From Chthoniobacteraceae bacterium (GTDB lineage Bacteria; Verrucomicrobiota; Verrucomicrobiia; Chthoniobacterales; Chthoniobacteraceae), in contig CANIWM010000036.1 in the NCBI GenBank assembly GCA_947471505.1, positions 1-55,171 of the forward strand: a stretch of 55,171 nt of DNA. Direction: 5' to 3'. Shown here piece by piece: positions 37,171-54,259 of the stretch. The number at the start of each line of letters is the position of its first letter. Position 1 is the stretch's first letter. The position numbers were made by a program, and so were the translations under genes. Under the pieces are notes generated by a model. It was not told where the DNA came from and ran no database searches. It was given only the letters and a program-made list of their open reading frames with translations.

Positions 37171-37219
37171 TTGGGTGGCACGCTGGCTTTAACCCGAAAA
37201 ACTCTCACCAACAAACACT

Positions 37220-37579
37220 ATGGAAACAAACGAAAATCCCAATCCTACACCCGCAGCCGCACAGGCCCGGAAAAAGAAACCCCGCGCCTCGCGCAACCAA
37301 TCCGAGGAGGGTCGCATGGCGACGGGGTTGTCAAGCTGCGTCCGCTGGCAGATACTGCGGGAGTTGGCAAAAGGACAGGCGCTCCCGATTGCCGAACTGG
37401 ATCATCGCATCAAAGGAGGAAATACGATCTATCACATGCCGATGCTGATCGCTGCGGGATGGGTCGAGAAGAAGTTCAGGATACTCTATGGACTTACCGA
37501 GAATGTCCGGGTGGATGCGGCGGCAGGGCTGCTGGATTTGGGGCCATTGTTGCTGAAGCTCACACCAACGGTGAAATGA
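37220..37579 (+). CDS. Small winged-helix (ArsR-like) regulator within the decayed RM locus
   Basis: A 119-aa basic protein. The tail-like N-terminus (PTPAAAQARKKKPRASRNQ) is followed by a winged-helix core: SCVRWQILRELAKGQALPIA, then a recognition-helix region and a VEKKFRILYGLT wing. It overlaps the hsdR remnant by 4 bp (ATGA). The frame is intact although everything around it is broken. It probably once regulated the RM locus; whether it still binds DNA is unknown. Confidence 0.6.
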   Translation: METNENPNPTPAAAQARKKKPRASRNQSEEGRMATGLSSCVRWQILRELAKGQALPIAELDHRIKGGNTIYHMPMLIAAGWVEKKFRILYGLTENVRVDAAAGLLDLGPLLLKLTPTVK

Positions 37580-38277
37580 GCGCGATGGGGGAGGCGGCGG
37601 TGGAAGCCGCCGCCCTCGAATGGTTCGGAGGGCTGGGCTATGCGGTCGGGCACGGGCCGCATCTCGCGCCCGGTGAACCGGCGGCGGAGCGGGAGTCGTT
37701 TGGCGAGGTGGTGCTGGTGGGGCGCTTGCGCGAGGCCATCCGGCGGCTGAACCCGGCCATTCCCGAGGAGGCGCGCGAGGAAGCGTTGCGCAAGGTGCTG
37801 CGGGTGGGTTTTGGCTCGATGATTCAGACGAATCGTGCTTTTCACCGGATCCTGCGCGATGGCGTGCCGCTCGACTATCCCCGGCCCGATGGCAGCATCG
37901 CGGGCGATCATGTGCGGCTGGTGGATTTCGGCGATGTGCGGGCGAACGATTGGCTGGCGGTGAACCAGTTCACGGTGGTCGAGGGGCAGCACAACCGGCG
38001 GCCGGACATCGTGGTTTTCCTCAACGGCCTGCCACTGGGCCTGATCGAGCTGAAAAATGCGAGCGATGAAGACGCGGACATCTGGGCGGCTTACCGTCAG
38101 CTTCAAACTTACAAAGCGGAGATCGCCTCGCTGCTGCATTACAACGCGGCGCTGGTGGTAAGCGACGGCTTGCAGGCGCGCATGGGTTCCGTGACGGCGA
38201 ACCAGGAGTGGTTCAACCTATCAGACCAGTGTCGAGGAATGACAACCGGCTCGCTGGTCGTCCTCCGCTTTGAGTGA
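37576..38277 (+). pseudogene. hsdR: hsdR 5' fragment (type I restriction endonuclease)
   Basis: The frame starts like HsdR: ALEWFGGLGYAVGHGPHLAP, VNQFTVVEGQHNRRPDIVVF and the nuclease motif GLIELKNASDEDADIWAAY. It stops resembling the family after TANQEWF (about 38213) and ends with an unrelated tail at 38277. Only ~215 of the ~1000 residues are present; the helicase/translocase domains are gone. The breakpoint lies close to the end of the glycan/PKS operon on the other strand. Confidence 0.85.
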
Positions 38278-39204: not shown

Positions 39205-41061
39205 CTATTTGGGGAGGGTGCGCCGCCAGGTCTCGTAGAGCCAGAGTGCGAAGAAGGTGTAGTGGCCTTCCCAGCGCCCGGCGAGGTAGTCGTCCCACGC
39301 GGCGCGGAGGAGTGGGCGTTCGAGCTGCTCGCAGACGGCGGAGTTTGTGGCGAAGAGTTCTGCTTCGACGCGCTCGCGGAGTGGGCCTGCGAACCATTTG
39401 CCGAGGGGGACGGGGAAGCCTTTCTTGGGGCGGGTGAGGTCTTCGTTGAGCTTCCGCCCGATGGTTTTGCGGAGGATGTATTTGCCGATGCCGGTGTGGT
39501 GGAGCTTGAGGGAGGAGGGGATGCGGGCGGCGATTTTGGCGATTTCGAGGTCGAGGATGGGGGTGCGGAGTTCGATGCTGGCTCCCATGCTCATTTTGTC
39601 GGCTTTTTGGAGGAGGGATTCGGCGAGCTGCCAATCAATGTCGAGCGTGAGGAGTGCGCTGAGGGCGTCGCGCTGCGGGCGGCAGATGCCGGAGAGTTGG
39701 GCGGCGCGGGTGAAGAGTTGGGTGAGTTGCGCGGGGGTGAGGCCGCGAGGTTTGTGGGTGTCGCCGGGGAGCCCTTCTTGGCGGAGCATGAGGGTCTCGG
39801 TGGCGCGGGTGATCTTGATGCGTTGGCTGAGGCGTTGCCAGCGGGAGCCGGAGAATGCGGAGGCGGGGAAGAGCTTGCCGAGCCAGCGGAGGCGGTCTGT
39901 TTTGCCAAGGGTGTCGAGCATCCCTCCGTAGCGCCCGTAGCCGCCGAAGAGTTCGTCGCTGCCTTCGCCGGAGAGGAGGACTTTGACGTGTTGGCGGGCG
40001 AATTTGCAGATGTTGAAGACGGCGAAGCAGGCGGGGTCGCCGATGGGTTCGTCGAGGTGATGTGCGATTTGGCCGATGCTGGCGGCGAAGTCTTGGGCGT
40101 TGATTTCGAGCGGGTGGTGGTGGGAGCGGATTTCGCGAGCGGTCTCGGCGGCGCCGGTAAGCTCGGAGTCGTCCGAGCCGAAGCCGACGGTGAAGGTCTG
40201 GATGGTGCCGCCGAGGATTTCTTGGGCGTAGGTGACGACGACGCGGCTGTCGAGGCCGCTGCTGAGGAGGACGCCGAGGGGCACGTCGGCGCGGAGGTGG
40301 AGGCGCATACTTTCGTGGAGGGCGGAGTCGAGTGCGTCTATGGCGGCGGGTTCTTCGAGGAGATCGGGCTCTTGGTTGAGGTCGTAGTGCCAGTATTTGA
40401 CGGGCTGGGCGCGCTCGGGTGCATCGAGGGAGACGCGGATGTAGGAGCCAGCGGGGAGTTTATGGATGTGGCGGAAATGGGTGCGCGGGGAGGGGAGTGA
40501 GAGCCATGCAGCGTAGTCGAGGAAGGCCTCTGGGTCGAGGTCGCGGCGGAGCCACGGGACGTCGAAGAGGGCTTTCAGCTCGGAGGCGAAAGCGAAGGCT
40601 CCGTCTTGGCTGGCGTAGTAGAGGGGTTTTTGGCCGAAGTGGTCGCGGGCGATGAGGACGGAGCGGCGTGCGCGGTCGAAGATGGCAAAGCCGAACATGC
40701 CGCGCAGGCGCTCGAACATGCGCTCGCCTGCGTCTTCGTAGAGGTGGACGAGGACTTCGGTGTCGCTGCTCGTTTTGAAGATGTGGCCGCGTGCTTGGAG
40801 TTCGGCGCGGAGTTCGAGGTAGTTGTAGATTTCGCCGTTGAAGACGATGGCGATGGTGTGGTCTTCGTTCCAGATGGGCTGGTCGCCGCCCGCGAGGTCG
40901 ATGATGGAGAGGCGGCGCATCCCGATGGCGACGCCGGGCTCGACGTGGAGCCCTTCGCCGTCGGGGCCGCGATGGGCGATGCGGCTCAGCATCCGGTGGA
41001 GCCGGTCGGCGGCTTCATCTACCGGGGTGGCGCGTTCTATGAATCCTGCAATTCCGCACAT
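39205..41061 (-). CDS. asnB: Asparagine synthase (glutamine-hydrolysing) family amidotransferase
   Basis: A 618-aa protein starting at the ATG at 41061, the only start that exposes the catalytic Cys2 (MCGIAGF). The Ntn glutaminase domain has RRLSIIDLAGGDQP, FNGEIYNYLELR and SSDTEVL. The synthetase domain has the PP-loop LLSSGLDSRVVV, LSGEGSDELFGGY and the C-terminal RPKKGFPVPLGKWF. In surface-glycan clusters such enzymes often amidate a sugar carboxylate or an attached amino acid rather than making free asparagine. Given twelve co-directional glycan genes, that is the likelier role here (inference). Confidence 0.92.
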   Translation of the reverse strand: MCGIAGFIERATPVDEAADRLHRMLSRIAHRGPDGEGLHVEPGVAIGMRRLSIIDLAGGDQPIWNEDHTIAIVFNGEIYNYLELRAELQARGHIFKTSSDTEVLVHLYEDAGERMFERLRGMFGFAIFDRARRSVLIARDHFGQKPLYYASQDGAFAFASELKALFDVPWLRRDLDPEAFLDYAAWLSLPSPRTHFRHIHKLPAGSYIRVSLDAPERAQPVKYWHYDLNQEPDLLEEPAAIDALDSALHESMRLHLRADVPLGVLLSSGLDSRVVVTYAQEILGGTIQTFTVGFGSDDSELTGAAETAREIRSHHHPLEINAQDFAASIGQIAHHLDEPIGDPACFAVFNICKFARQHVKVLLSGEGSDELFGGYGRYGGMLDTLGKTDRLRWLGKLFPASAFSGSRWQRLSQRIKITRATETLMLRQEGLPGDTHKPRGLTPAQLTQLFTRAAQLSGICRPQRDALSALLTLDIDWQLAESLLQKADKMSMGASIELRTPILDLEIAKIAARIPSSLKLHHTGIGKYILRKTIGRKLNEDLTRPKKGFPVPLGKWFAGPLRERVEAELFATNSAVCEQLERPLLRAAWDDYLAGRWEGHYTFFALWLYETWRRTLPK

Positions 41062-41078
41062 GGTGTGTAGGCGAGGCG

Positions 41079-42122
41079 CTATGCGCGCGCTCGGTTGTAG
41101 CCCTCCAAGGTAAGTTTTGCGACGTGGTCCCAGCTCGTATCTGCGCGCCATGCGGCGGCCCCGGCGAAGTCGGGCGGCACGGAGAGTGCGCGCTGGAGTT
41201 GCTGGGCGAAGTCGGAGTCGAGGGTGGTGAATCGGTGGATGATGGGGGAGGGCTCGTCGAGGACGACGGTGTCGAGCCGCTCGGGGAGAATCATGGGGAG
41301 CCCCCAAGAGCGGGCGAGGTTCGCCGCGCCGGAGGTGAAGATTTTCCGGTAGTTAAAGATGGTGCAGTCCACGGCGCAGAGCCAGTCGCGGAGGGCGGCA
41401 TCGGGGAGCCACTCGAAGCGTGCGATGATGTTTTTCGCCCCGCCGATGCGGCTGGTGAGGTGCTCGCGGTATGCGGCGTTGGAGGGCTTGCCGACGATGG
41501 CGAGGGTAGCGTCGGTATTGGCGGTGCGCCACCAGTTGATGACCTCCTCCTGGCCTTTGTAGGGCTCCACCATTCCGAAAATGAGGGCGATTTTCCCCGT
41601 AGGCGGGAGGTTCAGTTTCGCACGAGCGTCGGCTTGGGAAATGGGGTCGCCGAGGGTGACGGAGAGGTCGCCGTGAGGGACGACGGTGATGCGCTCGGGG
41701 CGGATGCCGAAGAGTTCGATCATCCGCGTTTTTGCGAGGATGGAGTGCGCGAAGACGACCCGCGAGCGGCGGTAGGCATCGCGGAGATTGGCGACGGCAA
41801 AGGATTCGTGGCTGCGGTTGTGAGGGGCTAAATTGTGGCCGGTGGTGGCGAGTCGGCAGCGGCGCAGCGCGAAGCGGAGGTCGAGCTGGAAGCGCGCACG
41901 GCGGAACCAATCGTGCCCGTCTCGCCTTGGCGGGTAGTAGGCCTCGGGCCAGTGGAGGTGGAGGATGTCGGCGTTCTTCTCCCGCATGGCGCGGGAGAGT
42001 GGGAGCAGCCGCTTGTAGCCGTAGAGGAAGTGGACGTGGACGCCCTGCCGCTCTAGTGCTTCCGAGAGCAGGCGCTGGTAGGGGACTCCTTCTCGCCAGT
42101 CGGGTGCGAAGACGACATCCAT
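41079..42122 (-). CDS. Glycosyltransferase, GT4-like (GT-B fold)
   Basis: A 347-aa protein starting at ATG 42122. It has an N-terminal domain with ILHLHWPEAYYPP and a C-terminal Rossmann half with ITVVPHGD, IALIFGMVEPYKGQEEVI and a FEWLPDAALRDWLCAVDCTI strand-helix, as in GT4-type retaining enzymes. The usual EX7E glutamates are not clear, so the exact family is uncertain. One base separates its start from the stop of the upstream glycosyltransferase. Confidence 0.82.
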   Translation of the reverse strand: MDVVFAPDWREGVPYQRLLSEALERQGVHVHFLYGYKRLLPLSRAMREKNADILHLHWPEAYYPPRRDGHDWFRRARFQLDLRFALRRCRLATTGHNLAPHNRSHESFAVANLRDAYRRSRVVFAHSILAKTRMIELFGIRPERITVVPHGDLSVTLGDPISQADARAKLNLPPTGKIALIFGMVEPYKGQEEVINWWRTANTDATLAIVGKPSNAAYREHLTSRIGGAKNIIARFEWLPDAALRDWLCAVDCTIFNYRKIFTSGAANLARSWGLPMILPERLDTVVLDEPSPIIHRFTTLDSDFAQQLQRALSVPPDFAGAAAWRADTSWDHVAKLTLEGYNRARA

Positions 42123-42123
42123 G

Positions 42124-43035
42124 CTAAAACTCCTCCTTTGGCAGTAGGATGGGCGCGAGCTTCGCCAGCCCTTCGGAGTAAAAGTAGTCGCGCACCGCAC
42201 CGACGTAGTGGCGCATGATGGCGTCGCTGGATGCCGTTTTTCCGAGGGTGACTTCGTAGGTTTTTGGCAGCAGTCCGCCGTGCCCGTGGCGCGATGCGCA
42301 GAGGGCGATGAGAGTCTGCTCGATGCGCCAAATGTGGCCCTTGGTGATGCTCGTCTCGCCAAGCGCGCGCTCGCAAAACTCAAGGTCTATGGCGGACTTT
42401 TGCAGCAGGCAGCAGCCGCTATTCACACGAGGCCAGAGCTTCACGCCGAGGTCTTCCCATGCGTTCTCGGCGGAGATGATGCTGGCCTCTGCGCAGTCTT
42501 CGTTGAACCAGCAATCGTTGGTCGAGCCGTTCACCCACGCCATGATTTCTCTCGGGTAGCGGTAAAAGAGAATGTCGCTATCGAGGATGATGAGTCGGTC
42601 GGAATCGCAGAAGTGCGGGATGTCGAAAATCTTCTGCGAGAGCGGGTGCTTGGTCCGGTATTCTTGGCAGAAGGGGAACGGGCGCAGGAGCTTTTCCATC
42701 GCAGGGTCGGCGTCGGTGAGGGAGACAAAGCGGCATGTTTTGAACAGCGTGCTGAGGGTCTTGCGGGCGACGGCGGGAAGCGTGCCGTCGTCGTGGATGA
42801 CGACGCGCCATGTCTCTTCGGTGACGGTGAACCAACTGGCCAGCATCCACGCGCAAAGCTCCCAGTCGTTCGCGCCGGTGAGGACGTGGACGGGCACGGG
42901 CATGGGCGATTCGTTCCAATACGGCCAGTTCCAAGTCGCGATGCGTGGCTTGGTATGCCGGTCGTGGTAGCTCGCGGACCAACCGCGCTTGATGTCGCGT
43001 CGGAGGTTCAGCCAAAGGCGTCCAAGTGAAATCAT
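42124..43035 (-). CDS. Putative glycosyltransferase with a DxD-type site
   Basis: A 303-aa protein starting at the ATG at 43035, which overlaps the previous stop by 4 bp. The DRLIILDSDILFYRYPREI stretch (~165-185) matches the DxD region of GT-A enzymes of the GT8/GT24/GT77 type. PVHVLTGANDWELCAWML near residue 50 and TNDCWFNEDC in the middle support this fold. No membrane segment. Family assignment is loose. Confidence 0.7.
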   Translation of the reverse strand: MISLGRLWLNLRRDIKRGWSASYHDRHTKPRIATWNWPYWNESPMPVPVHVLTGANDWELCAWMLASWFTVTEETWRVVIHDDGTLPAVARKTLSTLFKTCRFVSLTDADPAMEKLLRPFPFCQEYRTKHPLSQKIFDIPHFCDSDRLIILDSDILFYRYPREIMAWVNGSTNDCWFNEDCAEASIISAENAWEDLGVKLWPRVNSGCCLLQKSAIDLEFCERALGETSITKGHIWRIEQTLIALCASRHGHGGLLPKTYEVTLGKTASSDAIMRHYVGAVRDYFYSEGLAKLAPILLPKEEF

Positions 43036-43952
43036 TTGTGTGGAGACGGTTTTCTGAATCCGAGCCACTTGGCAAGGCTCGACTGCGTACGAATGCGTAC
43101 GGCAGGGCTGAGGAACCAGTGGGGATTCATCAGGATCGCACGGGTGAAAGTGGGGCGTGTGCCGCTCGGGTCGGCGGTCTCGCCGAGTTGGTAGAGATCG
43201 TAGTCGAGTTGCGCATTCAGGCACCAGCGCGTCCATAGGGTGAGCGGCGCTCCGGCGGCGATGTGCTTCCGCGCGATGCTGCGAATCTCGCTGGCGGCTT
43301 CGGTGGCGGCGTTAGATTTTTGTGCGGAGTGTTTGCGGAATTTTGCGAAGACTTGCGGGATGTGAGCGACGCGCGCACCAGCGATGAAGCAGCGCACCCA
43401 GAAGTCGTAATCGAACGCGAGATGGTAGCCGATGTCGAAGCCGCCCACTTTTTCAAAAAGGGACCGGCGAAAGAAGACCTCCGGCTGCACCCACTGACGC
43501 TTGCCCCACCACACGCGGTAGATGTTCAGGATGTCGCTCACGCTGTCAATTCGCCCGGTGTGGAGTCCGGTGGTGTTACCGTTTCCATCGATCCATTCTA
43601 TCGATCCATAGACGAGATCCACGTCGGGGTGAGTCGCAAAATAATCGAGCACGCAGCGCGCGGTGCCTGGCATGAGGATGTCGTCGCCGTTGATAAAACC
43701 GATGATCTCTCCGCCCATCGCGTGTAGGGCGGTGTTGATCGCGTCGGCCTGTCCACGGTCGAGCGCCGAATGGATGCTGTCGCCGGGCCGCGCGGCGGCT
43801 TGGGCGATGTCGAGGGTCTTGTCGTTCGAGCCACCGTCTTGCAGCCACCAGCGCAGAGCGTCGCCTTCCGCATTGAGCGAATTGAGCGTGGCGCCGAGGT
43901 ATCGCTCGGCGTTGTACACGGGCAAAGCTAGGACGAGCGGGCCGTTGCTCAT
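43032..43952 (-). CDS. Family 2 glycosyltransferase
   Basis: A 306-aa GT-A protein starting at ATG 43952: LVLALPVYNAERYLGATLNS, then WWLQDGGSNDKT in place of the usual VDDGSxD, FINGDDILMPGTA as the DXD-type site, and FDYDFWVRCFIAGARV for the catalytic region. The sequence pattern (QDGGSNDKT) groups it with the GT2 enzymes found in O-antigen clusters. It overlaps both neighbours by 4 bp. Confidence 0.9.
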   Translation of the reverse strand: MSNGPLVLALPVYNAERYLGATLNSLNAEGDALRWWLQDGGSNDKTLDIAQAAARPGDSIHSALDRGQADAINTALHAMGGEIIGFINGDDILMPGTARCVLDYFATHPDVDLVYGSIEWIDGNGNTTGLHTGRIDSVSDILNIYRVWWGKRQWVQPEVFFRRSLFEKVGGFDIGYHLAFDYDFWVRCFIAGARVAHIPQVFAKFRKHSAQKSNAATEAASEIRSIARKHIAAGAPLTLWTRWCLNAQLDYDLYQLGETADPSGTRPTFTRAILMNPHWFLSPAVRIRTQSSLAKWLGFRKPSPHK

Positions 43953-45232
43953 GCGGAATTGGAGGTTGTCCACGCGATGCGCGGGCACACGACGCCGGGC
44001 CACGATTCAGGGAAATGGGAGGACTGATTCCCGGCGCCCGAAACGACGAAGTTGATGAAGTCCGTCATGTGCATGAGGTAGCGGACGCCCGCCAAATCAG
44101 CCTGAACGCCAAGCGAATACATGCGCCGGTTTAGCAACTCACCGGGGATGCGGCAAGTCGTGCGATACGTGCCGATCTCGTGGTGCTCGCGCTGAAAAAT
44201 GTGGTCGGTCGCCTGAAACGCGAGCTCGCCCTCCTGCGTGGTGAGTTGGACGCGGAAACGCAAGTCGCGGAGCGGGCTGTGGACTTGGTAGGTGATTTCT
44301 ACATCGATGGAATTCTGCGCTTCAAAGGTCGTCTGCGGCTCGCCCAGATGGTCGAGCAGGCGGATGCGCTGGATGCGCATTTCGTCGCAGCCGGGCTTCT
44401 CCGGGTGCTGCCGCCAGTCGAGGTCGCCGTCCACGCTGGCGTGGTCTGGGACCGTGGCGGCAAGGTAGCGCGAGATGACTTCGGCGGGCGTGCCCGTGTA
44501 GGCGACGGCTCCGTTTTCGATGAGGATCGCATCGCGGCACAGCGCGCGGATGGCCGACATATTGTGGCTGACGAAGAAGACCGTGCGGCCCTGCCGGTTG
44601 GCGACATCGCCCATTTTGCCGAGGCACTTTTTTTGAAAGCCCGCATCGCCGACTGCGAGCACTTCATCAATGAAAAGAATCTCCGGCTCCAAGTGCGCGG
44701 CGACCGCGAATGCGAGGCGCACAAACATGCCGCTGGAGTAGCGTTTCACAGGCGTGTCGAGGAATTGCCCGACTTCGGCGAACTCGACGATCTCCTCGAA
44801 CTTCGCGGCGATTTCCCAACGCTTCATGCCGAGGATTGCGCCGTTCAGAAAGATGTTCTCGCGGCCTGTGAGTTCGGGGTGAAAGCCCGTGCCAACTTCC
44901 AGCAAAGAAGCGAGCCGCCCGCGTAGAATCGCACGCCCCGACGTGGGCTCGGTGATGCGCGACAGAATCTTGAGCAGCGTAGATTTCCCCGCGCCGTTTC
45001 TGCCGACGATCCCGACGATCTCGCCGGGGTTCACGGAGAACGAAACGTCCTTGAGCCCCCAAAAGGAATTGGGCACCGGACCGCGCCGGTCTGCGGCGAC
45101 GCGGGAGTCCTCTTTGGGCGCGGGCTTGCGCTTGCCGAGCACGCGCTCCATCGAGTCGCGGAGGCTGGTGGCCCCGATGCTTCCGAGGTGGAAAAGTTTG
45201 GATAGGTTTTGGACTTCGACGACGGGCTTCAT
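43949..45232 (-). CDS. wzt: Wzt-like polysaccharide ABC transporter ATPase, copy 2
   Basis: A 427-aa protein starting at ATG 45232. The nucleotide-binding domain (~1-250) has Walker A GIVGRNGAGKSTLLKIL, the signature region YSSGMFVRLAFAVA, Walker B ILFIDEVLAVGD and switch FVSHN. LEVGTGFHPELTGRENIFLN is typical for the O-antigen/teichoic acid exporter class. The C-terminal ~170 residues form a beta-sandwich carbohydrate-binding domain (IDVEITYQVHSPLRDLRFRV) as in Wzt, which recognises a finished chain end. It is a paralogue of 47288-48577, with very similar ATPase cores and different C-terminal domains. Confidence 0.9.
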   Translation of the reverse strand: MKPVVEVQNLSKLFHLGSIGATSLRDSMERVLGKRKPAPKEDSRVAADRRGPVPNSFWGLKDVSFSVNPGEIVGIVGRNGAGKSTLLKILSRITEPTSGRAILRGRLASLLEVGTGFHPELTGRENIFLNGAILGMKRWEIAAKFEEIVEFAEVGQFLDTPVKRYSSGMFVRLAFAVAAHLEPEILFIDEVLAVGDAGFQKKCLGKMGDVANRQGRTVFFVSHNMSAIRALCRDAILIENGAVAYTGTPAEVISRYLAATVPDHASVDGDLDWRQHPEKPGCDEMRIQRIRLLDHLGEPQTTFEAQNSIDVEITYQVHSPLRDLRFRVQLTTQEGELAFQATDHIFQREHHEIGTYRTTCRIPGELLNRRMYSLGVQADLAGVRYLMHMTDFINFVVSGAGNQSSHFPESWPGVVCPRIAWTTSNSA

Positions 45233-46143
45233 GAAAGAGAAATTTGCTGCCGGACGGCTCCAATCCACGGACGGAAGCAGAACAAGCTAGGGTTTGCGGC
45301 GGCTGCTTTGAACAGGCTGGCGAGGCGGGAGAGGCGGGAGGATGTCGCATCGCCGACGACGATTTTGCGGATGGCGAACCACTGGCGCTGGTGGCGCAGT
45401 TCGCGGGCAAGTTCGGTCTGCTCCTCGGCAGGCAGGGAGCGGAGATGTGCCTCGGCGATGAGGATTTCCTCGCCGGTGAATCGGTAGGAGTTTCCATCGC
45501 GGACGGTCTTGCACTCGTCGTGCCAGCGCCAGCGTCCCAGAACTTCGGGCACGCGGTGAAACTCGAAGCCGGAGAACATGGCGCGTGCGTAGTATTCCAT
45601 GTCCATCGAGTAGTGGTAAGCCTCGTCGAACGCGCCGATTTTTTCATACACGCGGCGGCGCATATACGTGACGTTTGAGCAGGAGAAAACGTGCTGCACC
45701 GAGCGTTGCCACGGGGTGAGGTATTCGATTTTCCGCGCGGGCGCTTTGGGCGTCACGGTGTCGCGCGAGCCTTGCGTGTCGAAGATGTCGGTGATGCCGC
45801 CGATCCAGTCCACCGCAGGGTTGGCGAAGATGTCCGCGACGCGCTGAAATGCACCGGGTGTGATGAGGTCGTCGTTGTTCAGGTAGGCCCAGATTTCGCC
45901 AGTGGCGCGGGCGAGTCCTTTGTTGATGGCGTGCGTTTGGCCACGGTCTTTTTCGCTTTCCCAATGGCTGATGCGGTCGCCGTATTTCTTGAGGATGTCC
46001 ACCGTGTTGTCGGTGCTGCCGCCGTCCATTACGATGAGTTCGATGTTTGGGTAATCCTGCTCAATCACAGAGCGGATGGTTTCTTCGATATAGGCTCCTT
46101 GGTTAAACGAAGGAGTGATGATGGAGATGCGCGGTGCGTTCAT
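45229..46143 (-). CDS. Family 2 glycosyltransferase
   Basis: A 304-aa GT-A protein starting at ATG 46143: ISIITPSFNQGAYIEETIRS, then LIVMDGGSTDNTVDILKKYG, a DXD-type AYLNNDDLITPGAF and YYSMDMEY-like catalytic region (HYSMDMEYYARAMF). MDGGSTDNT is the common O-antigen GT2 signature. It overlaps both neighbours by 4 bp, so it is translated in step with the acyltransferase and ATPase genes. Confidence 0.92.
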   Translation of the reverse strand: MNAPRISIITPSFNQGAYIEETIRSVIEQDYPNIELIVMDGGSTDNTVDILKKYGDRISHWESEKDRGQTHAINKGLARATGEIWAYLNNDDLITPGAFQRVADIFANPAVDWIGGITDIFDTQGSRDTVTPKAPARKIEYLTPWQRSVQHVFSCSNVTYMRRRVYEKIGAFDEAYHYSMDMEYYARAMFSGFEFHRVPEVLGRWRWHDECKTVRDGNSYRFTGEEILIAEAHLRSLPAEEQTELARELRHQRQWFAIRKIVVGDATSSRLSRLASLFKAAAANPSLFCFRPWIGAVRQQISLS

Positions 46144-47291
46144 CGGGTAAAAGGGTAAGGCGCACGGAGAGTGCCGCGCTCGATAAAACACCATGACAGT
46201 GTGGCTATGATGAGCGTCACCGCCAACGCGATGGCTCCGCCGATAAAGAAGAGCGGAAAGCCGGAGAGATTCCCCCGCAGCGTGCCGGCAAATGCAGCGT
46301 GCAGCACGAGGTCGTGCCACAAATAGATGCCGTAGGAAATCGTGCCCGCAGCTGCCATCCACTTCGTAGAAAGCGCCCGCGCAAAGAACCCCGAGCGCGC
46401 CACGGAAGCCGCGAGAGTGCCCAGCACGAGCGCGTTCAGCGGCCAACCGAGCGCGGAGGTGTGCCGCCAACCGGCCTCGTCGCCAAAGGTCACAATCGCA
46501 GCCGTCGCCACGATGCACGCGACGCAGGCGATGTCCGCCGAGCGTTCCGAGCAGCGAACGCGGAGCACGGCAAACGCAGCAGCGATGCCGAAGGCGAAGA
46601 GCTTCAAGTAAGAGAACACAGTCCCCACGATGACATCGCCCGTCGCGGAAACAAAGCGGTCCGGGATGAGCGGCTCCGCCATCCGCAGCGCCGAAGTCGC
46701 CGCCACATCCGCGAGCCAGCAGCCGCCGATGAGTGCGAGCAGCGTGACTGCCGCGCCGCATTTCCGAAAGACGCTGGCGACCGCAGCCATGATGAGCGGG
46801 AGGAGCAGATAGAACTGAAACTCGATCCCAATCGTCCATAAATCCCGATGAGGCCCGAGGTAGGCGTAGTCGGCGAAATTGTGGAGAAAGGTCACGTGCA
46901 GCAGGAAGTCGAGCGCCCCGTAAAACGTGTAAGTATCGCCCCGCAGAAGATACACGGCGACGAGCACCGCGAAGTATGCCGGGACGATGCGGCACGCCCG
47001 CCGCCACAAGTATTTGCCCATTTGCGGAGCTGGCTGGCTTTCCAAAATCGCCCGCCAAAACGGCAGCGAAAGCAGCAGACCAGACAGGACAAAAAAGATC
47101 GCCACTCCGATGTCGAACTTGCGCAGGAGGAACTCCAAGTTGAGCATGCCAATCGGGAGCACAAGCGGGGCGGCATCGCTTGGCTGCGCACTCCAGCGGA
47201 GGTGGTAAAAGAAGACCATGAAGCACGCTAGGCCGCGCAGGCCGTCGAGGCCAGGCAGTCGGTTGTCAGTCTTGGCGGCGGGTGTGGTCAT
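46140..47291 (-). CDS. Acyltransferase-3 family membrane protein in the glycan operon
   Basis: A 383-aa polytopic protein. RLPGLDGLRGLACFMVFFYH holds the conserved Arg and His of helix 1. GVAIFFVLSGLLLSLPFW and RDLWTIGIEFQFYLLLPLI follow, and the C-terminal region has GTISYGIYLWHDLVL. It is a second, distinct member of the family found at 9608-10693. It probably O-acetylates (or otherwise acylates) the glycan made by this operon, on either side of export. Overlaps neighbours by 4 bp. Confidence 0.92.
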   Translation of the reverse strand: MTTPAAKTDNRLPGLDGLRGLACFMVFFYHLRWSAQPSDAAPLVLPIGMLNLEFLLRKFDIGVAIFFVLSGLLLSLPFWRAILESQPAPQMGKYLWRRACRIVPAYFAVLVAVYLLRGDTYTFYGALDFLLHVTFLHNFADYAYLGPHRDLWTIGIEFQFYLLLPLIMAAVASVFRKCGAAVTLLALIGGCWLADVAATSALRMAEPLIPDRFVSATGDVIVGTVFSYLKLFAFGIAAAFAVLRVRCSERSADIACVACIVATAAIVTFGDEAGWRHTSALGWPLNALVLGTLAASVARSGFFARALSTKWMAAAGTISYGIYLWHDLVLHAAFAGTLRGNLSGFPLFFIGGAIALAVTLIIATLSWCFIERGTLRAPYPFTR

Positions 47292-48577
47292 GGGTTGAGT
47301 TCGACGGTGGTGGTGACTCGCGGGCAGACGGTGCCCGGCCAGCGTTCGGGGAACTGCGAGAGGTGATTCCCCGCGCCGACAATGCTGAAAGGGAGGTGCT
47401 TGCCGCCAGACACGAGGTAGCGGATGCCGGGCGCGTCGCTGCTTGCGCAGAACGAGTAAGCGCGCCGATTCAAGAGCCCGCCGGGCACGACAAATCGCGT
47501 GCAGTATTCGCCGCGCTCCAGCGTCGGTTTATGCAGCTCGTGGTCGGTCATCGTGAGCACGAGGTCGCCTTCAGTCGTGTAGAGCGACATGAGCATCCGT
47601 GCGCCTCGGAGGGGCTCGGTGACGCGGTAGCGGAGTTCGATGTGGATGGGTTCGTTCGCATCGAAAATCGCGCAGATTTCGTTGCGGGAGTTTCTCAGCG
47701 TGAGCGAAGTGAGGAGGAGTTCATCGGTGCTGTGCCTGTCGGTTTTATAGACGACGCGGCCTGCTTCGCCATCGTTCGTCGGCGCGGTGGCTGCGAGGTA
47801 TTGAGTGATGACCTCTTCGGGCGAGCCGCTCAGTTTCGCGGTGCCGTCTTCGATGAGCACGGCACGCGTGCAGAGTGCGCGGATGGCGGTGAGATTGTGG
47901 CTCACGAAAAAGATCGTGCGTCCACCCTCCGAAGCAACTTCGCCCATCTTGCCGAGACACTTTTGCTGAAAGCCCGCGTCGCCCACAGCGAGCACTTCAT
48001 CAATGAGCAAAATCTCCGGCTCCAAGTGCGCCGCCACCGCAAACGCGAGACGCACGAACATGCCGCTGGAGTAGCGTTTCACGGGAGTATCGAGAAAGCT
48101 GCCGACCTCCGCGAACTCGACGATCTCGTCGAACTTCGCCTGAATCTCCCAGCGTTTCATGCCGAGGATTGCGCCGTTCAGGAAGATGTTCTCGCGGCCT
48201 GTGAGTTCGGGGTGGAATCCCGTGCCGACTTCCAGCAGCGAGGCGATGCGACCTCGGAGCGTGATGCGCCCTTTCGTCGGCTCGGTGATGCGCGAGATGA
48301 GCTTCAGCAGCGTGGATTTCCCCGCACCGTTCTTGCCGATGAGCCCGACGATTTCCCCGCGCTGCACGGAGAAATTCACATCGCGCAGACTCCAGAACGT
48401 CCCCGGAATGTCGCCATTCCGCACCCCGAAATCGTTCGGCACGGCAGGCTGTTTCCGGCCCGGCAACATGGCGCGGAAGGCTTCGGCGAGCGAAGTCGGC
48501 CCGAGCGTACCGACGCGGTAGCGCTTCGAGACGTTCTCGATTTCGACGATGGGGCGGTTGGCGTTTATGGCCGTCAT
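47288..48577 (-). CDS. wzt: Wzt-like polysaccharide ABC transporter ATPase, copy 1
   Basis: A 429-aa protein. Walker A GLIGKNGAGKSTLLKLI, signature region YSSGMFVRLAFAVAAHLEP, Walker B ILLIDEVLAVGD and switch FVSHNLTAIRAL. The C-terminal domain (~255-429) is a Wzt_C-like beta sandwich (EPIHIELRYRVTEPLRGARM). It abuts the permease gene, the usual wzm-wzt order, and so is the more likely original partner of the permease. Its ATPase half is nearly the same as in 43949-45232. Confidence 0.92.
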   Translation of the reverse strand: MTAINANRPIVEIENVSKRYRVGTLGPTSLAEAFRAMLPGRKQPAVPNDFGVRNGDIPGTFWSLRDVNFSVQRGEIVGLIGKNGAGKSTLLKLISRITEPTKGRITLRGRIASLLEVGTGFHPELTGRENIFLNGAILGMKRWEIQAKFDEIVEFAEVGSFLDTPVKRYSSGMFVRLAFAVAAHLEPEILLIDEVLAVGDAGFQQKCLGKMGEVASEGGRTIFFVSHNLTAIRALCTRAVLIEDGTAKLSGSPEEVITQYLAATAPTNDGEAGRVVYKTDRHSTDELLLTSLTLRNSRNEICAIFDANEPIHIELRYRVTEPLRGARMLMSLYTTEGDLVLTMTDHELHKPTLERGEYCTRFVVPGGLLNRRAYSFCASSDAPGIRYLVSGGKHLPFSIVGAGNHLSQFPERWPGTVCPRVTTTVELNP

Positions 48578-49483
48578 TTACACGCTATCCACGACAGTGC
48601 GCTCGGCGCGGTTAAACGCGATGACGCCCAAGACGAGCGCCAGCACGGCGGCCAGCGTGGATGCGCAAAGCATCGCGGGCAACTCGGGGCTCATCTGCCC
48701 GCCTTTCAGCAGAACATCGCGCGTGGCCTCCACGACGGCGGCCATCGGGTTTGCCCAAGCCAGCCAGCCGAAGGTGTGGTTTTCGGTGATCTTTTTCATC
48801 GGGTAGAAAACGGGCGAGGCGAACATCCAGAGCTGGAGCAAGACGGGCGTGAGGTGGGCGAGGTCGCGGTATTTTGCCGTAGAGGCTGCAAGCAAAAGGC
48901 TGATGCCGAGGCTGAAGATTCCGGTGATCACAAACAGCGGAATCGCGAGCAGCGCGCTGAAGCCGATGTGAACATTGGAGCCCGTCGCCGCATACCAAGC
49001 GAAGAACGCGAGGAAGACCACGAGCTGCAATCCGAGTGCGAACAGATTGGAAATCGCCGCCGCCGCCGGGACGACGAGGCGGGGGAAATAGACCTTCCCA
49101 AAAAGGTGCGAGTTTGCCGTGAAGGTCGCCGCGCCGGTGGTGATGTTTTGTGAGAAATAGCTCCACGACAGCAGCGCGCAGAGATTGAAGATCAGCGACG
49201 GGATTCCATCCGTGTCGATGCCGCCGATTTTGTTAAACGCGATGCTCATCACCAGCGCCGTGAGCAGCGGTTGGAGCACGAACCAGATCGGGCCGAGCAC
49301 GGTCTGTTTGTATTTCGCGAGGAAGTCGCGGCGGATGAGGATGGAGAGCAGGTCGCGGTATTCCCACATTTCCCGCCAGTTGATCCGCAGCCAGCCTTTA
49401 CTCGGCTCGATGATGATTTCGTAGTTCCCGGCTGGTTCGGGCTGCGTGCTTGGTTCGGCCATAGTTGATTCAGTCGTGGGCAT
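48578..49483 (-). CDS. wzm: Wzm-like polysaccharide ABC transporter permease
   Basis: A 301-aa ABC-2 type membrane protein. The cytoplasmic N-terminus (EIIIEPSKGWLRINWREMWE) and the amphipathic gate helix (LSILIRRDFLAKYKQTVLGP) are those of O-antigen/teichoic-acid exporters. About six membrane helices follow, with WMFASPVFYPMKKI near the periplasmic side. It would move a lipid-linked glycan across the inner membrane in an ATP-driven step, which explains why no Wzx/Wzy is present. It begins where the phosphopantetheinyl transferase gene ends. Confidence 0.92.
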   Translation of the reverse strand: MPTTESTMAEPSTQPEPAGNYEIIIEPSKGWLRINWREMWEYRDLLSILIRRDFLAKYKQTVLGPIWFVLQPLLTALVMSIAFNKIGGIDTDGIPSLIFNLCALLSWSYFSQNITTGAATFTANSHLFGKVYFPRLVVPAAAAISNLFALGLQLVVFLAFFAWYAATGSNVHIGFSALLAIPLFVITGIFSLGISLLLAASTAKYRDLAHLTPVLLQLWMFASPVFYPMKKITENHTFGWLAWANPMAAVVEATRDVLLKGGQMSPELPAMLCASTLAAVLALVLGVIAFNRAERTVVDSV

Positions 49484-50158
49484 TTACAGACTCCATTCCC
49501 AATAGGCTAGTTCCCAATCTCTGCCCTCGCTCGCGACGGCTCCGGCGTAGCCTTCCGCCGGGGTGAGTGTGCGTACGGTCCAAGCAGAATCGTGGGTCGG
49601 TTCGCCGACAAGGCCGACGCCTTCCGCTTTGAGCCGCGCTTCTTTCTGAGTCCATAGATCGAAGAACCGCGAGGCGCGTTCGTCTTTGGGGGTAGTTCGG
49701 AGTTCCCAGTTTTCCCTCGGCTCGAAGTAGTGGTCGGCGATGGGCTCGAACTCGATGTCCGGCTGCACCCATTCCACATCCACGCCGACTTCGCGCCCCC
49801 GCGAAACGGCGACGATGGCGAGGTCGTGTGAGTGGCTGACGTTGAAGCGAATGTCCATGAACGGATTTACGACGAATGGCTTGCCGTGGCACCCGGTGCC
49901 AAATTCCAGGGCGGACGGCTCCGCTCCGAGGTAGCGCGCCAGAATCATGCGGACAGCGGCGCGGGTGGCGATGAACCGATTGCTGTCTTCGGGAAAATGA
50001 AAGCGCGCCGCGCGCACGAGTTCATCTGGTGAAAGGACGGAGCTGCATCGGGCGAGCTTGGCGGAGCGAGAAATTTTCGCGCGCCAGAGGTGGATCTCCC
50101 GGGCATGGAGGACGGTGCGGCTTGGAGCCGCAGGCCAGTTGGGCTGTGCTTGAATCAT
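49484..50158 (-). CDS. Sfp-type 4'-phosphopantetheinyl transferase
   Basis: A 224-aa two-lobed PPTase. CHGKPFVVN, RFNVSHSHDLAIVAVS, the Mg-binding EVGVDVEWVQP (Asp and Glu) and FFDLWTQKEARLKAEGVGL (W..KEA...K) are all intact, so the enzyme should be active. It attaches the phosphopantetheine arm of CoA to carrier proteins. The gene overlaps the PKS-like gene by 4 bp, which implies a PKS/NRPS-type carrier as substrate. However, I see no carrier domain in that protein or elsewhere in the operon. Confidence 0.93.
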   Translation of the reverse strand: MIQAQPNWPAAPSRTVLHAREIHLWRAKISRSAKLARCSSVLSPDELVRAARFHFPEDSNRFIATRAAVRMILARYLGAEPSALEFGTGCHGKPFVVNPFMDIRFNVSHSHDLAIVAVSRGREVGVDVEWVQPDIEFEPIADHYFEPRENWELRTTPKDERASRFFDLWTQKEARLKAEGVGLVGEPTHDSAWTVRTLTPAEGYAGAVASEGRDWELAYWEWSL

Positions 50159-53100
50159 GGTTTTTGGGCTAGTGAGAGTCGGTCGAGAATCTCGCGAACT
50201 TTAGCAGCAGCGGTGCCAGCGTGTTCGCGAATGTAGGTGATGTGGTCGCCGGGAAGGGTGTGAAGTTCAAGCTCGCCGGGATGCGATTTTTCCCAGCCGA
50301 GCTTACCGCCTTCGCTATGCGTTGTCTCGTCCACCAGGAGCGTAAGCTTTCCTTTGTGGGTTCGCAGCCGGTGCTTATACATCGTGATGGGGTAGTCCTT
50401 TTGCCCACGGGGATGCTGCTCCTGCTCGGGCGCGGGCTCGTATCCTGAGCGATGGTCTGCGCTGCGGCGGCGGGTGCGGGTGGATGCCTTGCCCGTCAGA
50501 TAGCGGACCTTTTTTCCGAGGGTGTAGCCTTTGATGGCGTCCATGTGGTGGCGGAACCGGTCGATGAAAGAGCCAGTTTGCTGCGTTTCTGATTCCTTCA
50601 GAAGTTGCTGGTGCAAGTGGTCGCGGAGATTGTCCCGGCTTGGCGGGCGAGTGTTGAGGAGTGCGAGGAAGTCCACGAGTTCGCCGGCCTCTCGTAGCTG
50701 TCTGGCGATTTCGTAGGCGCAAATGCCGCCGGTGCTTTCGCCGACGATGCGGTAGGGCCCGTGCGGCCAAAGCGCGCGGATTTCATGGATGTAGTCGGCG
50801 GCCATTTCTAGCACCGTCATGTGCGGCGGATCGGCGGTTCCGGCGCCACGTGCCTTGAGTCCATAGATGGGAAGTTCCGGCCCTAGGTGGCGCACAATCT
50901 CTGCGTATTCGCGGAATTCGATCTCGCCGCCCCAGCCGCCGGGGATAAGGAAGAGCGGCGGCAATTGTGTTGAGCCCGTCTGGATTTGAATGAGAAATTT
51001 CCCCAGCGGAGACGCGCTGGTCGGGGCGTCCGCAGGCTCTTCTTTCGCTGAAGGCGCGGGCGATTGCCGGATTGCGAGTGCGGCGGTTGGCTGGGCTTTT
51101 CCGGGTAGGAACTGGATGAGCGCTCGCACACTCTCATCGAACGCCTCCGCGAGGCGGGCGATGTCGTCGTCCGTGTGCCCGACGTTGAGGGTGTTGGGGC
51201 GGGAGTGCCAGACGAACACTCCGCGCATCCGCATGTGGAAAATGAGGAGCGCTGCGTGCGGGAATCCCGCCGGGAGTTGCATCGAGAATTGAGACGATTC
51301 CGCCTTCCAGCATTCGGGGAGATGGGTGTTCATCCGTGCGACGAGCGCGGAGGCTCGCTCGCTGAGGTCGGGTGCTTGCGCGGGCTCGCTGTCGAGCGTG
51401 GCGGATACCCCGCGGATCAGCCCTTGGCCGCGCGTGAAGTCGATGTATTCGTTCCCGTCGATGTCCCACACTCGTTTGCTGTGCGAGCGCTCGGCGACGA
51501 TCGGGTAGGCGAGCGATTGCCACTCGGCGCAGCAGTTTTCAGCGGCGAGGAAATCGCGGTTCTCGGCGGCGAAGCGTTTCGATTCCGCGGTGAGGCGCGT
51601 GTAGCGTGCAGCGAGCGCGTCGAGGTGCTCGCGCTGGAAGGCGGTGAGCGGCGGCGGGAGCGCCGAGCCCTTCGGAGTGGGCCAAAAGCGGCGGCGCTCA
51701 AACGGATACGTCGGCAGCGGGACGCGCGAGCGCGCTTCGCCGCTGTGGAGGGCTTCCCATTGGATGTCGCGACCGGACGACCACAAGTGCGAAAGGCCGA
51801 TATAGATGGTCCGAATATCACTCGCGCTCTCTCGCAGCGAAGTCGCGGCGATCCGCGCGGGGTCCTGCTGGCGGGTGAGTTGCGAGAGCATGTGGCCGGG
51901 CCCGCACTCGATAAAGATCATGTCGGGCTCGTGGAGCAGCGTCTTTATCGCGGAGGAAAAGCGGACGGTTTCCCGTGCGTGCGTGGCCCAGTAGTGGGGG
52001 TCGGTCGTCTGCTTTGCTGTGAGCGATTCGCCGGTGATGCACGAGAACATCGGGATCGCCGGCGCGTTGCAGGCGAGCTGCCGGATGGCCGCTGTCAGCG
52101 GCTCGATCACCGGGTCGCAGAGTTCCGATTGGAAAGCGCGCGACGTCTCCAGGCGCTTGCACGCGACGCCGTTCGCGGCGAGGCGCGCTTCGAGGCTGGC
52201 GACTGCTTCTTCCGTGCCGGAGATCACCGTGGCGCTTGGGCTGTTGAGCGCGGCGATGGAAAGTCGTTGCCCGAGGAGCGGGGTAACCTCCGATTCCGGG
52301 AGGCTCACCGAAATCATACATCCCGGCGGTTGCTCGTGCATGAGGCGAGCGTGCGTGGCGACGAGCATCGCGGCATCTTCCAGCGAGAACACCCCTGCGA
52401 GCGCGGCAGCGGCATACTCCCCGGAGCTGTGCCCCAGCAGCGCGGCGGGCTGGATGCCGAGCGACATCCAGAACCTCGCCAGCGCGAGGCTCACGGCAAA
52501 AATCGCGGGCTCGGAATAGCGCGCCTCGCCCAGCACGCGTGCGGCCTCCTCGCGGTCCTCATCGGCGGGGTGGATGAGCGCGCGCAGGTTCCTTCCGACG
52601 TGCGGCTGGAGGACGGCGCAGACTTCATCCAGCGTATCGCGGAACACCGGCTCGTATTCATAAAGCTCGGCCCCCATCCCGACGAACTGCGCGCCGTGTC
52701 CGGGGAAAAGGAACGCCACTCGTTTCGCTTCCGCTTTCCCGGCGATGGTGCGCTTCGGATCGAGTTCGCGCAGCGCAGCGATGGCGAGTTCGCGCGTCGG
52801 GCAGACGACGGCGCGGCGGTGCTCGAAGTGCCTCCGCCCCGCAACCAGCGTGTGTGCGATGTCCGCGAGGGAAAACTCCGGGCGCGCTTCGATCCAGTCC
52901 GCCAAGTCGCTGGCGCGCTGGGCCAATGTGCTCTCCGATTTTCCCGAGAGGATGAGCAGATTCTCCGCGCGCCCCGTCTCGGCGGCGATTCGCCGGGGCG
53001 GCTCTTCGAGGACGATGTGCGCATTCGTCCCGCCGATGCCAAACGAGCACACTCCAGCGCGGCGCGGCGTCTCGCCCGTGGGCCACTCCATCCGGTGCCC

Positions 53101-54033
53101 GATGTGAAAGAACGGCGTCTCCGTCGTCTGGGAATGCGGACGGTCGAGGCTCGCCGGGATTGTCTCGTAGCGCAGGGCCAGCGCCGTTTTGATCAGCCCG
53201 GCGATGCCTGCCGCTGCGCCGACGTTCCCGAGATTTGTCTTCACCGAGCCCAGCGCGCAGAAGTTTTTCTCCGCTGTGGTGGTGCGGAAAGCGCGAGTGA
53301 GCGCGTCCAGCTCCGCCGCATCCGCCTCGATAAAAGTGACGCTCTCCGCGGAGATGCCCGCGAGCGTGTGCGCGGCGGCGATGACCTCTGCGTGGCTGCT
53401 CGCGCTCGGCGTCGCTCCGTCGTGATTCAGCGTCGCCGCCTGGATCACCGCGTAGATGAAGTCCCCCGTTTCCACAGCATCCGAAAGCCGCTTGAGCGCC
53501 ACGACGCCGACGCCGCCTGCCGCCTGCGGGAAGACAATCGAAGCCCCGCCCGCCAGCGCCATATCGCAGCCGTAGCAGCGGAGGCTCTGCACCGCTTGGC
53601 ACACCGCGGCCAGCGAAGTGGAGCACGCCGTCTGCACCGTCACTGCCGGGCCTCGGAGATTCAGCCGCGCCGCCACACGCGAGGCGAACTCGTCTGCATC
53701 GTTCCCATTTTCCACCGGATAAGTCCTGCGGCTGCACCCGCCGAAGACGCCGATGGCTCCCGCGAATTTCGCCGGGTCGCACGCCGCATCCTCCAGCGCC
53801 GCCCAACATTCTTCGAGGAAGACGCGGTGCTGCGGGTCCATCGCCTCCGCATCGCCCGGCGAGATGCCGAAGAACTCCGCGTCGAACCACTCCGGTTTCT
53901 CCAGCAGCTCGCGCCGCGAATCCTCGCCCGCCAAAAGATTGCGCCAAAAGTCCGCGACACTCCGCGCCCCCGGAAAGCGGCCTGCCAATCCTATCATTGC
54001 GATCCCTTCAAGGGACGGTTGGGCGTGAGTCAT
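50155..54033 (-). CDS. PKS-like megasynthase KS-AT-(aminotransferase remnant)-TE, catalytically degenerate
   Basis: A 1292-aa protein starting at ATG 54033, which heads the KS domain; upstream in-frame sequence belongs to a palindromic element. KS (~8-345) has Cys137 in TACSTS and ends in GTNAHIVLEEPP, but at ~340 residues is clearly shorter than the usual ~425. AT (~435-740) has FPGHGAQ and Ser536 in GHSSGEY. Residues ~800-975 keep only the two ends of a class III aminotransferase (YPIVAERS..RVWDIDGNEYIDF and RGVFVWHSRPNTLNVGHTDD). TE (~1022-1290) has Ser1100 in GESTGG and His1264 in PGDHITY. Missing catalytic elements are listed in the findings. No acyl/peptidyl carrier domain is visible. 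First gene of the twelve-gene operon. An active ancestor would have made an amino-acyl or beta-amino fatty chain. Confidence 0.85.
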   Translation of the reverse strand: MTHAQPSLEGIAMIGLAGRFPGARSVADFWRNLLAGEDSRRELLEKPEWFDAEFFGISPGDAEAMDPQHRVFLEECWAALEDAACDPAKFAGAIGVFGGCSRRTYPVENGNDADEFASRVAARLNLRGPAVTVQTACSTSLAAVCQAVQSLRCYGCDMALAGGASIVFPQAAGGVGVVALKRLSDAVETGDFIYAVIQAATLNHDGATPSASSHAEVIAAAHTLAGISAESVTFIEADAAELDALTRAFRTTTAEKNFCALGSVKTNLGNVGAAAGIAGLIKTALALRYETIPASLDRPHSQTTETPFFHIGHRMEWPTGETPRRAGVCSFGIGGTNAHIVLEEPPRRIAAETGRAENLLILSGKSESTLAQRASDLADWIEARPEFSLADIAHTLVAGRRHFEHRRAVVCPTRELAIAALRELDPKRTIAGKAEAKRVAFLFPGHGAQFVGMGAELYEYEPVFRDTLDEVCAVLQPHVGRNLRALIHPADEDREEAARVLGEARYSEPAIFAVSLALARFWMSLGIQPAALLGHSSGEYAAAALAGVFSLEDAAMLVATHARLMHEQPPGCMISVSLPESEVTPLLGQRLSIAALNSPSATVISGTEEAVASLEARLAANGVACKRLETSRAFQSELCDPVIEPLTAAIRQLACNAPAIPMFSCITGESLTAKQTTDPHYWATHARETVRFSSAIKTLLHEPDMIFIECGPGHMLSQLTRQQDPARIAATSLRESASDIRTIYIGLSHLWSSGRDIQWEALHSGEARSRVPLPTYPFERRRFWPTPKGSALPPPLTAFQREHLDALAARYTRLTAESKRFAAENRDFLAAENCCAEWQSLAYPIVAERSHSKRVWDIDGNEYIDFTRGQGLIRGVSATLDSEPAQAPDLSERASALVARMNTHLPECWKAESSQFSMQLPAGFPHAALLIFHMRMRGVFVWHSRPNTLNVGHTDDDIARLAEAFDESVRALIQFLPGKAQPTAALAIRQSPAPSAKEEPADAPTSASPLGKFLIQIQTGSTQLPPLFLIPGGWGGEIEFREYAEIVRHLGPELPIYGLKARGAGTADPPHMTVLEMAADYIHEIRALWPHGPYRIVGESTGGICAYEIARQLREAGELVDFLALLNTRPPSRDNLRDHLHQQLLKESETQQTGSFIDRFRHHMDAIKGYTLGKKVRYLTGKASTRTRRRSADHRSGYEPAPEQEQHPRGQKDYPITMYKHRLRTHKGKLTLLVDETTHSEGGKLGWEKSHPGELELHTLPGDHITYIREHAGTAAAKVREILDRLSLAQKP

Positions 54034-54118
54034 CTGCCTGCCGGGGAAAGCTGCCTCCGTGCCAAGCGGCGGGGACGCGGTGTGATTAAGAGTGGAATGG
54101 ATTGAGTCGCGACAGCGA

Positions 54119-54259
54119 CAAGGAGCGGCGACATTCCTGTCGCTGTCCTGAAAGCGCGAAGCGCCCAATTTCGAGCACCGTACAGCTACCGAGAGCCGTG
54201 GGAAACTGATTGGGCGCTTCGCGCTGTGGTTACAGCGACAGGAATGTCGCCGCTCCTTG
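54119..54259. repeat. Palindromic element with 51-bp arms
   Basis: Left arm 54119-54169 and right arm 54209-54259 are inverted copies, the same except for one 6-bp block (CCTGAA against AACCAC). The central loop is 39 nt. Extra short hairpins are nested inside (GACAGCGACA/TGTCGCTGTC from 54111). It sits just upstream of the PKS-like gene, in its promoter region, so it may have changed expression of the operon. Confidence 0.75.

Follow-up and report, generated by a model that had tools for sequence, protein, structure and literature searches.

The window analysed here is the whole of contig C36, a stretch of 55,171 nucleotides in the 6.07 Mb draft genome (G000) of a Chthoniobacteraceae bacterium. 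Close to its end lies a reduced polyketide synthase (PKS) gene, called mini below, in the following setting.

40857..54077: 13.2 kb block collinear with contig 29 of a second genome, G006, at 92.5% DNA identity
47288..48577, minus strand: Wzt-like ABC ATPase (Pfam and synteny)
48578..49483, minus strand: ABC-2 type membrane protein in the same syntenic block as mini (Pfam and synteny)
49484..50158, minus strand: Sfp-type phosphopantetheinyl transferase (PPTase), its ATG overlapping the mini stop codon (ATGA)
50155..54033, minus strand: mini, 1292 aa
54123..54255: MITE-like inverted repeat directly upstream of mini

The open reading frame that contains mini was listed at 50155-54168, the TTG at 54168 being a mechanical frame start only. 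The most likely start is the ATG at 54033, residue 46 of the listed frame; the G006 orthologue (L021:6814-10695) aligns with mini from this ATG, and the similarity to the G006 DNA block stops near 54077, close upstream of it. The 21-base arm of the MITE-like repeat occurs in 22 exact copies in the G000 genome and in none in the reversed control, with seven facing pairs among the copies whose starts lie 99-116 bases apart. The operon is best read as one for glycan or lipopeptide export. Elsewhere in the same surroundings, two paralogous Wzt-like ABC ATPases share one glycan cluster (43949-45268 and 47288-48577), the first with a dN/dS of 0.026, far under the 0.172 of the second. An asparagine-synthase-like amidotransferase (39205-41307) lies inside the glycosyltransferase cluster and was matched in all five other genomes for which that cluster end was fetched (G001, G003, G006, G007 and G008), and the far end of the glycan cluster holds a lone type I restriction protein with an HSDR_N domain (37165-38277), encoded on the opposite strand.

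By Pfam and alignment, mini reads ketosynthase (KS), acyltransferase (AT), class-III aminotransferase remnant and thioesterase (TE), and none of its parts matches a carrier, aminotransferase, condensation or adenylation domain of Pfam. Full-length synthases of about 2800 aa, with the order KS-AT-ACP-AMT-C-A-PCP-TE (checked by Pfam for G000 and G008), are present in G000 (contig C1), G006 (C11), G001, G008 and G009. Compared with these five, mini is short by 1483-1515 residues, spread over 18 alignment gaps that merge into some 11 separate deletions, all of them in frame. Other synthases of this kind are split or partial: that of G007 (L024) consists of two overlapping frames of 1653 and 786 aa, whose total is below full length; that of G003 (L028) consists of two frames of 1563 and 1370 aa, with a KS-AT outside the genus clade; and contig 655 of G002 (L031) has only a TE-ending frame of 1366 aa.

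What the KS domain has kept and what it has lost is located below by alignment.

53014..54009, minus strand: KS domain, residues 9-340 (Pfam PF00109/PF02801), with six internal in-frame deletions
53623..53625, minus strand: codon of Cys137, within VTVQTACSTS; Cys in both minis and in 57/57 relatives
53513..53516, minus strand: junction of a 29-residue deletion after residue 173 (the GYxYxEG..SPDG..FD..GTxF segment)
53321..53324, minus strand: junction of an 8-residue HGTGTxLG deletion after residue 237
53224..53226, minus strand: codon of Asn270; His in 57/57 relatives

The underlying KS-AT alignment holds 59 sequences, namely mini, its G006 orthologue (L034) and 57 of 78 other loci, the remaining loci having been omitted to limit alignment size and not for their content. 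These relatives were drawn from the best 80 of 407 (79 distinct loci), and other reduced copies may exist beyond them. Within this sample from the best 80, the Cys, both catalytic His and Lys265 are present in all 57 relatives, and both KS His are missing only in mini and its orthologue, each of which retains Cys137 and Lys265. Relative to the five full-length synthases of the genus, six discrete pieces of the KS are gone: 17-27 residues after residue 39, 18 after 109, 29 after 173, 6 after about 208, 8 after 237 and 4 after 298. A preliminary description of this DNA had claimed that Cys137 was intact, that the HGTGT block was absent, that the second His was replaced and that a third conserved segment was missing. 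The alignment bears out each point: VTVQTACSTS is in place, with a numbering that fits the ATG at 54033; the HGTGTxLG gap falls near 53322; Asn270 stands against an invariant His; and the 29-residue gap falls near 53514. To these the present analysis adds the deletions after residues 39, 109, about 208 and 298, as well as the losses of AT catalytic residues, ACP, aminotransferase core and C-A-PCP module described below. The earlier conclusion that the KS cannot elongate likewise stands, since both His and the HGTGT and SPDG-type loops are gone from mini and retained in its relatives. Of what marks an elongating KS, the nucleophilic Cys remains and the HGTGT His and NxGH His do not, and a loss of condensation capacity in mini is strongly supported by the sequence.

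Ketosynthases of the KS0 type, the non-elongating KS domains of trans-AT PKSs, keep the Cys and have lost the HGTGT His, and the mini KS shows this same combination. Acyl binding at Cys137, as had been suggested earlier, is still conceivable because the residue is kept in both copies; the chain could then be passed on or released, and the retention of Lys265 in both copies and the strong constraint on the KS (see below) fit with such a role. The context gives that suggestion no support, however. Mini is not part of an assembly line with a receiving ACP, and Pfam finds no PF00550 carrier in it or in the other scanned proteins of the 13 kb block, while carriers were seen in the NRPS/PKS on contig C1. 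Its AT, moreover, lacks the His and Arg found in malonyl transferases, and the orthologue lacks the Ser as well. Chain holding of this sort is thus a distinctly unlikely role for mini.

The losses extend through the rest of the protein.

51877..52713, minus strand: AT domain, residues 441-719 (Pfam PF00698, E 4.9e-50)
52426..52428, minus strand: AT Ser536 (GHSSGE); Gly in the orthologue, Ser in 57/57 relatives (alignment)
52351..52353, minus strand: AT residue 561, His in both minis, Arg in 57/57 relatives (alignment)
52129..52131, minus strand: AT residue 635, Gln in both minis, His in 57/57 relatives, SHAFHS having become SRAFQS (alignment)
51139..51663, minus strand: class-III aminotransferase remnant, N- and C-terminal pieces (alignment)
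50218..50958, minus strand: TE domain, residues 1026-1272 (Pfam PF00975, E 6.3e-24)

At AT residue 446, the G000 mini has His and the orthologue Gln; as 446 and 536 are altered in one species only, they must have changed after the species split. Mini has neither the Ser-His pair nor the extender-binding Arg that together characterize a malonyl-type cis-AT, and on what is generally known of KS and AT catalysis, both condensation and malonyl loading by mini are excluded. Further along, the ACP ahead of the aminotransferase remnant is gone (about 113-125 residues), followed by about 250 residues of the aminotransferase core and a C-A-PCP stretch of about 1000 residues. Pfam matches the aminotransferase at E 1.5e-43 in the full-length paralogue versus not at all in mini, which has no PLP-binding core of the class-III type.

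An AlphaFold model of mini residues 1-800, built from the 59 sequences, reached a pLDDT of 90.9 and a pTM of 0.90, and the best Foldseek match of the modelled KS-AT was the KS-AT of ClbI (8xju; TM 0.91). In VIA-align, ClbI scored Z 52.8 with an rmsd of 2.2 A over 773 residues, at rank 3 and tied with 4wky and others, the entries above it being two KS chains aligned over fewer residues. Because the alignment consists mostly of intact relatives, the model shows that the shortened sequence fits the fold and not that the protein folds, and it may overstate the fold of the mini KS-AT. In a second model (residues 791-1292), the TE blocks 221-340 and 441-500 had pLDDT values of 62-93 and 69-90, the TE lid region (341-430) had values of 34-53, and the aminotransferase remnant was mostly below 50.

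The Pfam score of the TE, 85.9 bits, compares with a gathering score of 26.4, the nucleophilic Ser of GESTGG (codon at 50734-50736) is in place, and both Ser and His are kept in both minis. The Asp of LLDT, after the nucleophile, is Asn in mini, and in the G006 copy the second Gly of GxSxG is lost to give GxSxR; from these two changes the TE may be dead too. The same Asn occurs, however, in one of the 15 other TE rows (L055), and for this reason the mini TE should not be called dead. The TE alignment comprised the 15 of 32 TE stretches that start inside the hydrolase domain. As an observation on the wider family, six TE rows from the full-length synthases of the genus read GECVGG or GECCGG, with a nucleophilic Cys in place of Ser, and Cys is also found at this position in G028, of the same family.

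Whether these losses amount to decay can be judged from the G006 orthologue, which belongs to a second species, is 89% identical in amino acids and shares the large deletions, apart from which a single 2-residue gap separates the two copies. Mini is known from these two sequences, both in draft assemblies, among the best 80 of 407 relatives. An assembly error was considered as the cause of the deletions and rejected, the second species carrying the same ones. Neither copy contains a stop codon or frame break. By the NG86 method, dN/dS between the two is 0.199 (95% bootstrap 0.159-0.246), with 220 synonymous and 151 non-synonymous changes; 278 of the 371 would be expected to be non-synonymous without constraint (p 2e-44). 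The ratio is 0.16 for the KS, 0.24 for the AT, 0.15 for the aminotransferase remnant and 0.135, the lowest, for the TE, with 0.38 for the KS-AT linker and 0.53 for a second linker. The two checks proposed with the preliminary description therefore favour its account of the KS: the close homologue (G006/L034) has the deletions and no complete HGTGT, and dN/dS, at 0.16 on the KS and 0.20 overall, is not near 1. Constraint on mini is somewhat relaxed, as its ratio is about twice that of the full-length pair of the same two genomes (0.105) and above that of seven of eight neighbours, though within their range of 0.026-0.302. Mini has a dS of 0.27 and the full-length pair one of 0.35, values of similar magnitude that fit vertical descent. 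Selection acting through a long antisense ORF (51175-54105, plus strand) was also considered and rejected, the ratio in its frame, antisense frame 0, being 1.38; antisense frame 1 gives 0.255, but that frame holds 24 and 30 stops.

The distribution of changes along the KS-AT points the same way. Among relatives from the best 80 of 407, 126 columns are conserved in at least 56 of 57; both minis keep 98 of these, 15 are substituted in at least one mini and 13 are deleted, all but one of the latter lying in the HGTGT block or in the SPDG-type segment. The substituted AT columns are 446, 504, 508, 536, 561, 632 and 635; five of them are catalytic-motif positions, with Q at 446, S at 536, R at 561, and H at 632 and 635. 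The two minis differ from each other at 5 of 113 conserved columns (208, 446, 504, 508 and 536) versus 63 of 440 weakly conserved ones. Most conserved, and presumably structural, residues have therefore been held while active-site residues drift.

A neutral pseudogene, decaying with its frame open by chance, is one account of such losses. A full-length paralogue exists at another locus in both mini-bearing genomes, no PKS match was found in the 19 kb fetched around the PPTase of G009, and the mini dN/dS is about double that of the full-length pair. In the tree, too, mini has a stem branch of 0.65 and tips of 0.05 and 0.06, a pattern as expected for fast change and then constraint. Nevertheless, some 11 deletions have all left the frame open with no stop in either copy, mini has neither the frameshift or stop nor the dN/dS near 1 of a pseudogene, and the ratio of 0.199, which arose after the shared deletions were fixed, together with its p value, rejects neutral decay for the time since the species split. 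Decay could hold today in one species, and overall this is the least probable of the readings weighed here.

Constraint might also come from the gene downstream, if the mini frame were open only for coupled translation of the PPTase. The overlap of stop and start is present in both genomes, and no Sfp-type PPTase other than the one after mini was found in G000; this enzyme probably activates the synthase at the other locus. The remaining ACPS-family match of that genome is a 154-aa frame, AcpS-like in appearance. Coupling needs an open frame, however, and not conserved residues, and ratios of 0.135-0.24 in four domains would be left unexplained; a mere translational leader is very improbable. 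The G006 PPTase (L021:10695-11366), the only Sfp-type match in that genome, is interrupted by a TAG in its own frame (codon 193 of 224), and the operon may be decaying there; the PPTase match in G007 is also split over two frames.

Perhaps the TE alone matters, as a C-terminal hydrolase or editing thioesterase working in trans with the KS-AT as a passive carrier. In favour are the lowest dN/dS of any domain, Ser and His kept in both copies, the L055 precedent for Asn, and a core that is modelled with confidence. The KS and the aminotransferase remnant are similarly constrained, however, which a passive carrier fails to explain, and the Asp-to-Asn change and the GxSxR of G006 speak against a working TE. 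We consider this reading rather unlikely.

The synthase lies directly before the PPTase, exporter and glycosyltransferase genes in G001, G003, G007 and G008, a TE-ending frame lies ahead of the PPTase in G002, and in G000 and G006 mini occupies the synthase place before the PPTase. The genome without a PKS match in the 19 kb around its PPTase, G009, is sister to G000/G006 in the full-length-PKS tree, and the role of mini must be dispensable there. In G000, the lone Sfp-type PPTase after mini suggests that the operon probably still serves the relocated full-length synthase. A 12-row tree groups mini with the G001, G007 and G008 synthases, with support of 62/62 only, and grouping with the G000/G006 paralogues and G009 is not rejected (p-AU 0.134); in a 23-row tree mini is sister to both full-length groups. 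Given the long branch, no claim is made on its origin between the two. One could imagine mini as a regulatory decoy that pairs with the KS or docking partners of the full-length paralogue and so tunes the active synthase, considering that the paralogue is present in both mini-bearing genomes and that the KS core is conserved. Identity between the two proteins is only about 49% over residues 212-835 of the listed frame, though, and segments of the KS are missing, so that such a decoy is quite improbable.

Losses common to two species, purifying selection across every retained domain, a KS-AT fold modelled with confidence and the place ahead of the only Sfp-type PPTase found are the observed basis of our interpretation. 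Catalytic parts have been lost and yet the sequence has been selected in two species, from which it follows that the job probably needs shape and not chemistry. The reading we favour, and hold to be somewhat probable, is that mini is a pseudo-synthase, a KS-AT platform carrying a TE-like domain and kept for its shape. On this account, a full-length PKS/NRPS hybrid would once have headed an operon of PPTase, ABC exporter and glycosyltransferases; mini is probably its in-place remnant, the full-length synthase now residing at another locus. In-frame deletions and point changes would have removed what chain extension needs (the KS His, the substrate loops, the AT His and Arg), and the same process would have taken the entire C-A-PCP module along with the ACP and the core of the aminotransferase, leaving the KS-AT body and the C-terminal alpha/beta-hydrolase (TE) domain. 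KS domains normally form homodimers. The KS-AT body might serve as a rigid stand for the TE-like domain, which may still be a Ser-His hydrolase, and/or as a docking site for proteins that partner the export pathway or the relocated synthase. More tentatively, and with considerable doubt, mini may now organise or gate surface-glycan or lipopeptide export, or the relocated synthase, as a catalysis-free scaffold, its stable KS-AT-TE body having arisen through the excision of domains and the loss of active sites. The odds given to a TE-only, acyl-holding, decoy or leader role overlap with those of the favoured reading.

An assembly-line synthase is generally expected to be either functional or in decay; mini has lost its condensing chemistry and stayed selected. 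Two species carry it, and sister genomes have full-length relatives in that position, which offers a natural experiment on the parts of a KS-AT body that are needed only for shape. Domain-based annotation (Pfam) would call mini a KS-AT-TE PKS although condensation is impossible.

Among known systems, the full-length synthase of the genus is the parent architecture, aligning with mini over the KS-AT, the aminotransferase ends and the TE; unlike mini, it has its KS and AT motifs and about 1480-1515 residues more. ClbI, whose KS-AT shares its fold with the mini model, keeps EAHGTGT and NIGH in its sequence, whereas mini is without both His. KS0 domains share the kept Cys and lost HGTGT His, but they sit in trans-AT lines with ACPs, whereas mini has a cis-AT arrangement with a damaged AT, no ACP, several KS deletions and the second His lost as well. 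Pseudoenzymes generally keep their fold and lose catalytic residues under purifying selection, traits that mini shares, its fold being a prediction. In the titles and abstract openings that literature searches listed, no polyketide megasynthase was described as disarmed in its KS, AT, AMT and carriers together. The nearest published precedent found is CalA3, an ACP-less chain-release PKS module of calcimycin; its AT has lost Ser, His and Arg, and a structural part is ascribed to its inactive domains (PMC10006239). Like CalA3, mini has no ACP, and its AT is altered where that of CalA3 is: both copies have lost His and Arg, and the orthologue has lost Ser too. CalA3 also bears on acyl holding at Cys137, as an ACP-less PKS whose KS performs release chemistry: mutation of either His abolished amidation, and the two His mutants gave 3.4- and 4.2-fold more hydrolysis product (PMC10006239). 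The Cys mutant likewise gave more of it, however, so that this product is no proof of Cys catalysis. The CalA3 KS keeps Cys-His-His and is the working enzyme of a module that also has DH and KR domains (PMC10006239), whereas mini has a KS stripped of both His and its substrate loops, with the AMT/NRPS parts excised and the TE kept.
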